Source: Methanothrix thermoacetophila PT
GTDB taxonomy: Archaea; Halobacteriota; Methanosarcinia; Methanotrichales; Methanotrichaceae
Direction of reading: 5' to 3'
DNA length: 64,000 nucleotides
NCBI RefSeq assembly: GCF_000014945.1
Contig: NC_008553.1
Location: 372,001 to 436,000, forward strand
The notes beneath the pieces were generated by a model. It was not told where the DNA came from. It saw only the letters and a program-made list of their open reading frames with translations, and searched no databases. Shown here one piece after another: positions 18,726 through 39,745 of this stretch (the stretch's first letter is position 1; each line of letters begins with the position of its first letter). A program made the position numbers and the translations under genes.

Positions 18726-19874
18726 ATGTTCAGGAGGCTATCATCTCTCAGTTACGCCCTTGAACGTCTCCTCGATCTGTGCAATCCTTTGGAGGAGAGG
18801 GAGAAGATCCAGATCAAGGATGCGTGCGGGAGGGTTCTCGCATCTGATGTTCTGTCGCCTGAGAATCTGCCATCTTTCAACAGGGCTGCCATGGATGGAT
18901 ATGCCGTCAGATCTCACGAGACGAGGGGTGCGTCTCAGAGCTCCCCCGTCCGGATCACGGAGTACGTGAGGGTTAGAACTGGCGCTGCTCTCCCTGAGGG
19001 TTTCGATGCGGTTGTGATGCTCGAGGATTCGTTTTTACGCGGTAACGTCCTGGAGATCACAGCCGAGCTCACGCCATACAGAAACGTCTCGAGGATCGGC
19101 GAGGATGTGAGGTCAGGGGATATCGTGCTTAGCTGCGAGCACAGGCTCAGGCCGCCAGACCTTGCGCTTCTCGGGGCGGTTGGCATCGATGAAGTGGAGG
19201 TTTTCAAAACTCCACGTGTTGCTGTTATCCCAACAGGAGATGAGCTCGTCCCCAGGAGCTGCGTGCCTGCACCTGGGGAAGCGAGGGAGATAAACAGCAT
19301 TATGATATGCAGCTACGTGAAACTCTGGGGCGGTGAGCCGCAGCTCTCTGGAGTGATACCGGATGAGAGAGATGCGATAAAAGAGGCCATAAAGAGATGC
19401 ACGGGCTCTGATCTGATACTGGTCTCAGGCGGGACATCAGTCGGTGATAGAGATTATGCGCCGGGCGTGCTGGATGAGATGGGTGAGCTGATGGTTCACG
19501 GGATCAGGCTGAGCCCTGGCAGGCCCACAGCCCTCGGAGCCATCAATGGCACCCCGATTGTGTGCCTTCCGGGATACCCCGTGGCTGCTCTGGCATCGCT
19601 CTACCTGCTCGTGAGGCCCGCGGTAAAGAGGCTTGCGCATCTAAGCGATGATACTCAGAGAAGAGAGGCGAGGCTCTCAAGAAAGATCCCGTCCAGGCCA
19701 GGTTACATCACATTCGCAAGGGTCTCGCTGAGGGATGGGATCGCCGAGCCGGTCATGGTCAGCGGAGCCGGTATACTGAGCTCTGTCGCGCGGGCTGATG
19801 GATTTGTTCTGGTGCCGGAGGATCTTGAGGGGCTGGATGAGGGGGAGAAGGTAGAGGTGCATATCTTCGAGTGA
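18726..19874 (+). CDS. moeA: Molybdopterin molybdenumtransferase MoeA
   Basis: The 382-residue protein has the MoeA order: N-terminal domain with NLPSFNRAAMDGYAV, a central region RTGAALPEGFDAVVM, a MogA-like domain with VSGGTSVGDRDY and LPGYPVAAL, and a C-terminal beta domain. It inserts molybdenum or tungsten into molybdopterin-AMP for enzymes such as formylmethanofuran dehydrogenase. It lacks the periplasmic-binding-like extension seen in some archaeal MoeA. It stands alone, 60 bases after cbiP. Confidence 0.93.
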   Translation: MFRRLSSLSYALERLLDLCNPLEEREKIQIKDACGRVLASDVLSPENLPSFNRAAMDGYAVRSHETRGASQSSPVRITEYVRVRTGAALPEGFDAVVMLEDSFLRGNVLEITAELTPYRNVSRIGEDVRSGDIVLSCEHRLRPPDLALLGAVGIDEVEVFKTPRVAVIPTGDELVPRSCVPAPGEAREINSIMICSYVKLWGGEPQLSGVIPDERDAIKEAIKRCTGSDLILVSGGTSVGDRDYAPGVLDEMGELMVHGIRLSPGRPTALGAINGTPIVCLPGYPVAALASLYLLVRPAVKRLAHLSDDTQRREARLSRKIPSRPGYITFARVSLRDGIAEPVMVSGAGILSSVARADGFVLVPEDLEGLDEGEKVEVHIFE

Positions 19875-20282: not shown

Positions 20283-20765
20283 TTACAGGCTTGTTGGCAC
20301 CGTATGGTATGGGGGTTTTGTCGAATATTGCTTTATATCGTATGTGTCTCTGGTCTTGACGAACTGCTGTATGTCGTATGTTGGTTTCTGCATGAAGTAC
20401 GCCTGTACATCGTAAAGTGGTTTCTGTCTGAAGTACATCTCAACGTCGTATGTGTCTCTGGTCTTGACGAACTGCTGTATGTCGTATGTTGGTTTCTGCA
20501 TGAAGTACGCCTGTACATCGTAAAGTGGTTTCTGTCTGAAGTACATCTCAACGTCGTATGTGTCTCTGGTCTTGACGAACTGCTGTATGTCGTATGTTGG
20601 TTTCTGCATGAAGTACGCCTGTACATCGTAAAGTGGTTTCTGTCTGAAGTACTGGTCTACATTATATCCCTGCGCCACCTGCAAATTCTCCTGAGACGTG
20701 GTGGTGAGAACCATTGCAGATAAAACCACTATCAGGAGCAATGCTCTGCATATCAAAATTCTCAT
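20283..20765 (-). CDS. Secreted protein built of 36-residue tandem repeats
   Basis: The 160-residue product has a signal peptide (MRILICRALLLIVVLSAMVL), a short linker, then three copies of a 36-residue unit. Each unit is three related 12-mers: YFRQKPLYDVQA, YFMQKPTYDIQQ and FVKTRDTYDVEM. That gives nine 12-mers with pattern aromatic-X-X-X-basic-X-X-Tyr-Asp-aliphatic-X-X. It ends in a short Tyr/Pro-rich tail. No family is recognised; a fibrous or adhesive surface role is inference. The ATG at 20765 has AAGGAGGG upstream, so the longer frame to 20804 is rejected. Confidence 0.8.
   Translation of the reverse strand: MRILICRALLLIVVLSAMVLTTTSQENLQVAQGYNVDQYFRQKPLYDVQAYFMQKPTYDIQQFVKTRDTYDVEMYFRQKPLYDVQAYFMQKPTYDIQQFVKTRDTYDVEMYFRQKPLYDVQAYFMQKPTYDIQQFVKTRDTYDIKQYSTKPPYHTVPTSL
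20338..20652 (-). repeat. 108-bp in-gene tandem repeat, 2.9 copies
   Basis: The same sequence starting TGGTCTTGACGAACTGCTGT occurs at 20351, 20459 and 20567, exactly 108 bp apart and nearly identical at DNA level. This implies recent expansion or gene conversion. It encodes the 36-residue protein repeats and has no spacers, so it is not a CRISPR. Confidence 0.95.
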
Positions 20766-20869
20766 ATTCGACCCTCCTTGCAGCAAACGTATGTAATCCC
20801 ACATAGCACTCTTGTGTATTTAACTGGCCTATCATGGGTTTTGTATATAACTTTAACTCGTGCTGCGAG

Positions 20870-21334: not shown

Positions 21335-21715
21335 ATGAAGGATTACACTGTAAAGGTGCTGGACGATCGGGATCTGGAGTTCATCGAGGCGCTGAGAAGT
21401 CTTGGTGTGCAGAGGAACGTCGCGGCTCTGGTCACATACCTATCAAACACAAAAGAGGTCTCATCAAGAGAGATCGAGATGGGCACAGGGCTCAGGCAGC
21501 CAGAGGTCAGCATAGGAATGAGATATCTCAGACAGAACGGCTGGATCGATGAGCGTGATGTCAAGGGTGAGGGCAAGGGCAGACCCATGAAGGTTTACAC
21601 CCTCAAGGTCTCGATAGACGATATCATAAAGCACTTTGAGGATCAGAAGCTAAAGGAGTCTGCCAAGGCGATGGAGTCGATAAGGAAGCTCAGGGAGCTG
21701 ACCTCCGCGACCTGA
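21335..21715 (+). CDS. Small winged-helix transcriptional regulator (TrmB/MarR-like), paralogue of 42487-42876
   Basis: The 126-residue protein has an N-terminal helix pair, a winged-helix core (SSREIEMGTGLRQPEVSIGM recognition region, about residues 45-64), a basic wing with GKGRPMKVYTL and a C-terminal coiled helix (DIIKHFEDQKLKESAKAME). The second copy at 42487-42876 shares LRSLGV, LRQPEVSI and the wing motif. Such TrmB-like proteins regulate metabolism in methanogens. The targets here are unknown. It is followed by herA after 73 bases. Confidence 0.82.
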   Translation: MKDYTVKVLDDRDLEFIEALRSLGVQRNVAALVTYLSNTKEVSSREIEMGTGLRQPEVSIGMRYLRQNGWIDERDVKGEGKGRPMKVYTLKVSIDDIIKHFEDQKLKESAKAMESIRKLRELTSAT

Positions 21716-21788
21716 TCTCTTTAGGGAAAATATAATTAAGGTGGAGTACAGACTGTCAGAGGGAGTAGCTTAGCAGCGGTGATGACTC

Positions 21789-23315
21789 TTGCGAGGTTCT
21801 GTTGGTGTTATAGTGGGTGAGACCAGTCCACTCCAGTTCAAATTCATGATACATGGCGCTGTGGGCAGGGGCGACTATGTGAAGGTCAGAGGAGATGGAA
21901 GAAGCTGGATACTTGCTCAGGTTGAGGAGATACGGAGATCGAACACTGCGTACAGCCTCGCTCACATGGAGAGGGGGTGCACACAGACATGCAGGGAGTG
22001 GGTCGTTGCAGATGCGCGTGTTATTGGAGTGCCCTCAGATGGTCGCATAAGATCGCCCGCGATGCCACCCAGGCCTGGCGAGGAGGTTTTTGCAGCAGAT
22101 GAGAAGATGATAGCTGCTGCACTTGGTCTCTCCAAGGGAGACATGTACATAGGCATTTTGAAAGGGCATGATCTGCGAGTCGAGCTGGATGCCAACACGC
22201 TTGTGCAGAAGCACTGTAGTGTTCTGGCCAAGACCGGCAGCGGCAAATCGTACACCGCTGCGGTCATCCTGGAGGAGCTCCTTGATAAGGGTGTGGCGCT
22301 TCTTGTGATAGACACGCACGGTGAGTATGGCTCGATGAGGTACCCGAACAGGGATGGTGACTTCAACAGGTTCAGGGTGAAGCCAAAGGGTTATAACATA
22401 ACGGTCTACACCCCAGCAAATCTCGCGATAAACCCGAGGGCGGACAGGCCCTTCAGATTCGACGGATTGAACCTCTCAGCCAGGGATATCGCCAGGATGC
22501 TCCCCGACGACCCGACCAATGGATCGGTGGCTCTTCTATACGAGGCAATAGCAGCTCTTAGATCGGAGAGGGAGAGCTACGATCTCGAGGATATCATAAA
22601 GCAGGTCGAGAAGGCCAACTCCAAGTCGAAGTGGACACTGATCGGGCAGCTTGAGCAGCTGCTCGAGATGGGACTCTTCTCGGGAGAACCAACTAGGCCT
22701 GAGGAGCTTCTCCAGCGGGGGCATGCGTCTGTGATCGATATGACCGGAGTCCCCCAGGAGATGCAGCCGATGATAGTTGCAAAGCTGCTCACAGACCTCT
22801 TTGAGGCCAGGAAGCTTGGCAGGGTCTGCCCCGGGATGGTTGTCATAGAAGAGGCACACAACTACATACCTGAGAGAGGGACGGGAAGGGCAGCATCGAC
22901 ATCGATAATAAGAACGATCGCGGCGGAGGGGCGCAAGTTTGGTATGGGTCTGATGATAATAAGCCAGCGGCCTGCAAGGGTCGACAAGAATGTCCTGTCA
23001 CAGTGCAACACCCAGATAATAATGCGTGTGACGAATCCAAATGATCTAAAAGCTCTATCGAAGGGGCTAGAGGGGATGAGCACCGAGCTGGAGGAGGAGA
23101 TCAAGAGGCTGCCTCCAGGGACTGCGATGATTGTGAGCAACGAGATCGAGAGGCCCATAGTGGTGAACATAAGGCCCAGGAGGTCGAAGCACGGCGGCGT
23201 GAGCACCCCGATAGTAATGACAGACCATCCTGTGAAGGGTCCTGTGCCCAGGAGAGAGCCGCAAAAGGGCCCAGGTCTATTTCTCAGAAAGGTTCTCGGC
23301 CCGAGAGGCGCTTGA
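21789..23315 (+). CDS. herA: HerA-type bidirectional DNA translocase/helicase
   Basis: The 508-residue ATPase has an N-terminal HAS-barrel (GVIVGETSPLQFKFMI), Walker A VLAKTGSGKSYTA at about residue 150, Walker B GMVVIEEAHNY and a sensor region ISQRPARVDKNVLSQC. HerA forms a hexameric ring that works with nuclease NurA, Mre11 and Rad50 in end resection of double-strand breaks. None of those genes is adjacent here. The start is a TTG at 21789 preceded by GGTGAT. The gene follows the regulator and may share its transcript. Confidence 0.9.
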   Translation: MRGSVGVIVGETSPLQFKFMIHGAVGRGDYVKVRGDGRSWILAQVEEIRRSNTAYSLAHMERGCTQTCREWVVADARVIGVPSDGRIRSPAMPPRPGEEVFAADEKMIAAALGLSKGDMYIGILKGHDLRVELDANTLVQKHCSVLAKTGSGKSYTAAVILEELLDKGVALLVIDTHGEYGSMRYPNRDGDFNRFRVKPKGYNITVYTPANLAINPRADRPFRFDGLNLSARDIARMLPDDPTNGSVALLYEAIAALRSERESYDLEDIIKQVEKANSKSKWTLIGQLEQLLEMGLFSGEPTRPEELLQRGHASVIDMTGVPQEMQPMIVAKLLTDLFEARKLGRVCPGMVVIEEAHNYIPERGTGRAASTSIIRTIAAEGRKFGMGLMIISQRPARVDKNVLSQCNTQIIMRVTNPNDLKALSKGLEGMSTELEEEIKRLPPGTAMIVSNEIERPIVVNIRPRRSKHGGVSTPIVMTDHPVKGPVPRREPQKGPGLFLRKVLGPRGA

Positions 23316-39576: not shown

Positions 39577-39745
39577 GCTAAAAGCACTCTACTTTCTAGA
39601 AGCACTTTCTAGACCGTGTCCAGTAACGTCTAGCCTAGCGTAGGGAGGCTAAAAGCACTCTACTTTCTAGAAGCACTTTCTAGACCGTGTCCAGTAACGT
39701 CTGGCCTAGCGTAGGGAGGCTAAAAGCACTCTACTTTCTAGAAGC
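39577..39745 (+). repeat. 71-bp tandem repeat, 2.4 copies
   Basis: Units start GCTAAAAGCACTCTACTTTC at 39577, 39648 and 39719. Copies differ by a single base (TCTAGCC versus TCTGGCC). Each contains the palindrome TTCTAGAA and a second TCTAGA, so each could fold as a hairpin. It sits between the convergent surface protein and IorA-like genes. There are no unique spacers, so it is not a CRISPR. Confidence 0.93.

Follow-up and report, generated by a model that had tools for sequence, protein, structure and literature searches.

The window analyzed here (a stretch of 64,000 nucleotides from Methanothrix thermoacetophila PT) contains one gene for a small repeat protein, whose repeats evolve under strong purifying selection and whose array is kept uniform by concerted evolution. 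The protein belongs to a Methanotrichaceae family marked by a short conserved motif, and at about even odds (probability roughly 0.5) we read it as a small exported, largely unstructured and flexible chain that would serve the cell envelope as a strap or glue with many binding sites. A preliminary description of this DNA was right in its observation of the repeats; its amyloid or solenoid reading has been weakened, and its idea of a link to the sheath is possible. What the analysis adds is the motif shared across the family, the family restriction, the selection and homogenization of the repeats, and an ancestral locus beside a gene for a probable surface protein. Independently of any sheath question, the array provides a clean archaeal example of a short repeat in concerted evolution under strong purifying selection.

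The repeat gene and its concerted evolution

The features of the locus are the following, in window coordinates:

18726..19874 (+), left neighbor ORF, unrelated to the repeat protein
20283..20765 (-), gene of the putatively secreted repeat protein, 160 aa, stop codon within the coordinates, defined by the ORF and a Shine-Dalgarno GGAGG
20286..20342 (-), C-terminal cap, a degenerate 12-mer plus tail, YDIKQYSTKPPYHTVPTSL, kept in 6/6 congeners
20343..20666 (-), nine 12-residue units, 3 x 36 residues as (A-B-C)x3, from Tandem Repeats Finder, the unit list and the register
20667..20765 (-), signal-peptide-like N-terminus plus short linker, MRILICRALLLIVVLSAMVLTTTSQENLQVAQG, residues 1-33, from the sequence pattern
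20840..20859 (-), putative archaeal BRE/TATA promoter, GAGTTAAAGTTATATACAAA, conserved amid diverged upstream DNA
21335..23315 (+), right neighbor ORFs, divergent from the repeat gene and not part of the system

The reading frame extends from an ATG at 20765, preceded by the GGAGG ribosome site, to 20283; a second in-frame ATG occurs upstream at 20804, and its frame is not retained in one congener. The N-terminus consists of a basic n-region, a hydrophobic stretch and a small polar c-region, a pattern seen in all full-length relatives, and from this signal-like start the protein is probably exported, in line with the secretion proposed in the preliminary description. Upstream, the four congeners compared share the BRE/TATA-like element GGTTAAAGTTATATACAAA without any difference, and the version in the window is nearly identical to it. 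A structured RNA leader was rejected since the fold was no better than those of shuffled sequences (z = +1.29), and an opposite-strand ORF (20304-20723) and another minus-strand frame (20333-20626) were discarded as shadows of the repeats.

Tandem Repeats Finder reported a period of 108 bp with 2.9 copies and 100% matches between 20338 and 20652 (score 630), and a direct-repeat search gave in-register copies at 20338, 20446, and 20554 (100%, 100%, and 95%). Within the 108-bp repeat there is a sub-period of 36 bp, equal to 12 residues. The near-identity of the DNA repeats and the Tyr-Asp and basic-Pro pattern every 12 residues, both noted beforehand, were confirmed, and chance was ruled out by the exact 108-bp periodicity together with congener repeats that differ mostly at synonymous sites. 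Unit A follows Y[ND]V[DE][QM]YFRQKPL (usual form YDVEMYFRQKPL), B is YDVQAYFMQKPT and C is YDIQQFVKTRDT, and a degenerate 12-mer, YDIKQYSTKPPY, caps the array as its tenth unit. In the first of the A units, YNVDQYFRQKPL, YNVDQYF stands in place of YDVEMYF; of the perfect 36-residue repeats originally described, the layout of three 12-mers holds, while the perfection does not extend to all three.

One orthologue was found in each of 6/6 species of the genus, with nine full 12-mers in the species of the window, eight in two congeners and five in two others; in one further genome the gene is split over two contigs. Between congeners, the repeat region showed dS values of 0.31-1.45 and dN values of 0.010-0.054 (dN/dS 0.02-0.08), and dN of the signal region exceeded that of the repeat region in all pairs but one. 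The repeats are thus under strong purifying selection. For units B and C, identity among the copies of one genome is 98 and 96%, respectively, with few synonymous differences; copies from different genomes are 84 and 89% identical and have many such differences. Unit A is less informative in this comparison, as each array begins with an A unit of a distinct type. These results indicate concerted evolution of the array under purifying selection, and bear out the earlier suggestion that it is kept uniform.

The gene occupies a single locus in its own genome (1,879,471 bases): a protein search returned only the protein itself (E <= 10), and K-P-x-Y-[DN]-[VIM]-x-x-Y, sought as a pattern at the DNA level, had no match in that genome beyond the gene. 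The left neighbor, recognized by sequence, we take to be a MoeA-like molybdopterin biosynthesis gene, and the right neighbors are presumably a TrmB-like HTH regulator and a HerA-like ATPase, identified in the same way. The latter two are partly retained next to the repeat gene in congeners; no functional link between the window neighbors and the repeat gene is evident. Elsewhere in the window, at 39577-39745, there is a 71-bp direct repeat of 2.4 copies, 98% identical, with internal palindromic pieces (TTTCTAGAAG / CTTTCTAGA).

Family distribution and the ancestral locus

A single-sequence search retrieved relatives from 39/50 Methanotrichaceae genomes. Using three profiles (A1, A2, and A3), firm matches were obtained in 47/50, and the remaining three genomes, all incomplete, gave weak N-terminal matches alone. 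Outgroups were sampled by an even draw of 393 genomes of the phylum, 14 of them Methanotrichaceae; the 379 from other families, which may include other sheathed archaea, contained no relative at the thresholds used. A lone match in the rest of the class (genome G228) was rejected because two stops interrupt its frame, and a viral origin was dismissed, the viral contigs having no relative. Profile-profile comparison connected the three architectures with probabilities of 98.9 and 99.9%, the latter figure being inflated by two sequences of genus g11 used in both A1 and A3. Genus g11 is nevertheless a genuine bridge, with both ends like those of g8 and 12-mers like those of g1. Since low-complexity repeats and signal peptides boost profile scores, the homology of A2 (genus g9), the group farthest from the others, also rests on its conserved locus. 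Searches of Pfam and NCBIfam gave no match above curated cut-offs, and those of the PDB no sequence match to the repeat protein; sub-threshold Pfam/NCBIfam hits (KH_BICC1, 20.6 bits versus a cut-off of 27) were rejected as chance. One genome (G007) carries in addition a second, paralogous motif-repeat protein, in a 151-residue open frame (L112:1715-2149), and another (G016) has, about 4 kb from the homologue, an open frame that consists of MWNGNG hexapeptides in perfect tandem (L100:13987-14226).

In eight other genera (g2-g7, g9, and g11) the repeat gene adjoins a co-directional gene that we call c3, which it follows mostly at 2-132 nt; in two genera the gap is 783 and 1081 nt, with another small exported protein in between. 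The c3 product, of about 350 aa, begins in a signal-like manner and carries a hydrophobic anchor with a basic end at its C-terminus; it occurs in 198/238 Methanosarcinia genomes with no confident Pfam match. Judged by these sequence features, c3 (for instance L123:9637-10626, which is 1299637-1300626 in the genome of the window, and L096:7449-8492) is a surface protein of the whole class that has no family name. In 16 of the fetched loci, genes for thioredoxin and DUF1638 also lie close to the repeat gene, generally in convergent orientation. In the genus of the window and in g8, c3 is present and unlinked to the repeat gene. Near c3 in one genome (G005), Cas2- and Cas1-like ORFs and an apparent CRISPR array, visible as translated SVPFSSGFALQ repeats, were also observed (L125:12348-15543).

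Because c3 is found throughout the class, the ancestral setting of the repeat gene suggests the cell surface in general, without singling out the sheath. The repeat protein could then belong to the envelope with no relation to the sheath, and work with c3 at the membrane or S-layer. The adjacent, co-directional arrangement in eight genera and the signal, anchor and class-wide occurrence of c3 speak for such a partnership; the genes are however unlinked in two genera, one of them that of the window, and the rest of the class has c3 without the repeat protein. We consider this explanation unlikely, yet it is the one that fares best among those differing from the envelope strap or glue proposed above.

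The motif and its possible role in the envelope

The motif K-P-[TL]-Y-[DN]-[VI]-x-x-Y-[FS]-x-x-K was present in 29/29 family proteins, in 1-10 copies, as determined with a 14-position matrix trained on g3, g5, g7, g8, and g11 (g1, g2, g6, and g9 being outside the training set). Best scores were 15.7-42 bits, against 5.9 bits for the 99th percentile of shuffled maxima. Motifs are spaced by 12 residues in g1, g3, g7, and g11, apart from isolated gaps of 22 or 24, by 12 and 22 in g5, and by 43 in g8; in g9 the spacing is 12, 24, or 45, or the motif occurs as a single copy. By this comparison of sequences, the conserved feature is the motif, not the period. The family thus shows one feature of secreted multivalent motif-repeat proteins, a short repeated motif that varies in both copy number and spacing. 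The mature sequences have 0 Cys and no further hydrophobic segment (29/29). Most g9-type relatives (L015-L031) have an Asn/Thr-rich spacer carrying 4-14 N-x-S/T sequons; the genus of the window lacks it, and in those relatives glycosylated spacers may replace repeat units.

Structure prediction, suggested in the preliminary description as a check, was carried out with AlphaFold2 on two architectures. The window protein gave a model with a pLDDT of 46.6, short helices and no strands (10-row alignment), and a g8 relative one with a pLDDT of 40.5 and no fold; stacked strands are absent from both models, each of low confidence, and with such shallow alignments AlphaFold neither proves disorder nor rules out order on assembly. 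Variable or single motif spacing together with these fold-less models make a solenoid of fixed coils unlikely. A flexible chain with a repeated, putative binding motif would be the simplest reading, which the sequence comparison and the models support without proving it.

Under the strap or glue proposal, each copy of the motif would dock on one site of a repetitive surface lattice, be it the sheath rings, the S-layer or a surface protein, and the chain would cross-link the surface layer as a multivalent strap or glue. Avidity or reach would then be tuned by copy number, and this would account for the gain, loss, and homogenization of copies alongside the retention of the motif.

A narrower version makes the protein a sheath accessory factor, a disordered chain whose KPxYDVxxYF motifs would dock on successive SH amyloid rings as an inter-ring strap or plug glue, the repeat number setting how many SH rings are bridged. 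Methanothrix is a major methane producer, and the comparative genomics that found SH sheath proteins in all Methanotrichales named no assembly, accessory, or plug proteins (PMC11576556); recombinant MspA alone forms no sheaths (PMC6242892). The motif-repeat protein, confined to one lineage, strongly conserved, apparently exported and outside any described family, is a concrete sheath candidate. Against the sheath link, the family restriction coincides with the possession of a sheath in only one lineage, a single phylogenetic event, and the sampled outgroups, possibly with other sheathed archaea among them, have no relative. The envelope link that had been called conceivable still is so, and a sheath link is plausible but unproven; the specific ring-bridging version is tentative and rather improbable.

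In a different explanation, close to the one suggested in the preliminary description, the repeat protein is itself an amyloid or beta-solenoid fiber: each 12-mer would provide a strand (YDVxxYF) and a turn (xQKPT), and the units would stack into cross-beta filaments, either in the sheath or as a separate fiber. The strict 12-residue period in the genus of the window, the alternation Y-D-V-Q-A-Y-F, a mature chain with 20% aromatics, and near-identical units that would stack well are all in accordance with it. Nevertheless, the same motif recurs at 22-24 or 43 residues, or only once, in other genera, nearly every unit contains a proline and a charge, Gly is 0.7%, unlike in curli-type repeats, and AlphaFold returned short helices and no strands at low confidence. 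The fiber is thus doubtful, and the regular solenoid in particular found no support.

The aromatic residues (F/W/Y, 20% of the mature protein) could alternatively serve electron uptake at the surface in direct interspecies electron transfer (DIET). Counted with the signal region they make up 16.8%, the highest value of the 53 non-overlapping window ORFs of >= 100 aa, and M. thermoacetophila is described as performing DIET without surface multihaem cytochromes (PMC10470525). However, the g2, g8, and g9 relatives have only 5-10% aromatics, so that aromatic content is not a conserved property, and no such gene is among the candidate surface proteins in the passages of PMC10470525 consulted; this role is very improbable. 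Least probable of all is a precursor cleaved into repeated short signal or modified peptides, as the secreted leader and the near-identity of units in which a basic stretch recurs might suggest, given that dibasic sites are not conserved, many relatives have only 1-3 divergent units, and no modification or protease genes were recognized adjacent to the gene in the window or as a conserved partner in the fetched loci.

Comparison with known systems

MspA (Mthe_1069, ABK14853.1) resembles the repeat protein in being an exported protein of the same organism with aromatic residues and a surface context. It is nevertheless the product of a separate gene and has 60.9 kDa (PMC6242892), in contrast to 160 aa and about 19 kDa for the repeat protein; identity of the two was rejected, since Mthe_1069 is a different gene and the repeat protein matches only itself in the genome. 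The SH sheath proteins (Methanospirillum Mhun_2271 type; Mthe_0667/0668) are also exported proteins of sheathed archaea. They have two six-stranded beta-sheets in the core and are encoded by clustered, multi-copy genes, whereas no fold was predicted for the repeat protein, at low confidence, and its gene is single in its genome. By the tests made, it does not resemble the SH proteins. In function, a parallel may be the phenol-soluble polypeptides that stiffen Methanospirillum sheaths as accessory factors (Southam and Beveridge 1992, as cited in PMC6242892); these are from another archaeal family, and are likened here by analogy, not by sequence.

Curli and Fap amyloid repeats are of about 19-48 residues, with a strand-loop-strand arrangement and conserved Gly/Asn/Gln, as compared to a 12-residue unit with 0.7% Gly in the repeat protein, so that the likeness is limited to its Asn/Gln content of 15.6%. 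Beta-solenoids have a fixed coil length, whereas motif spacing in the family is 12, 22-24, or 43 residues, or the motif is single. Adhesives of the mussel foot protein 1 type are flexible proteins with short, Tyr/Lys/Pro-rich tandem repeats in variable copy number. The repeat protein differs from them in being archaeal and in a motif with Asp and Val, and DOPA chemistry is not expected in an anaerobe. The likeness, a lead taken from description and not homology, is in the repetitive Tyr/Lys/Pro-rich short units that both have.
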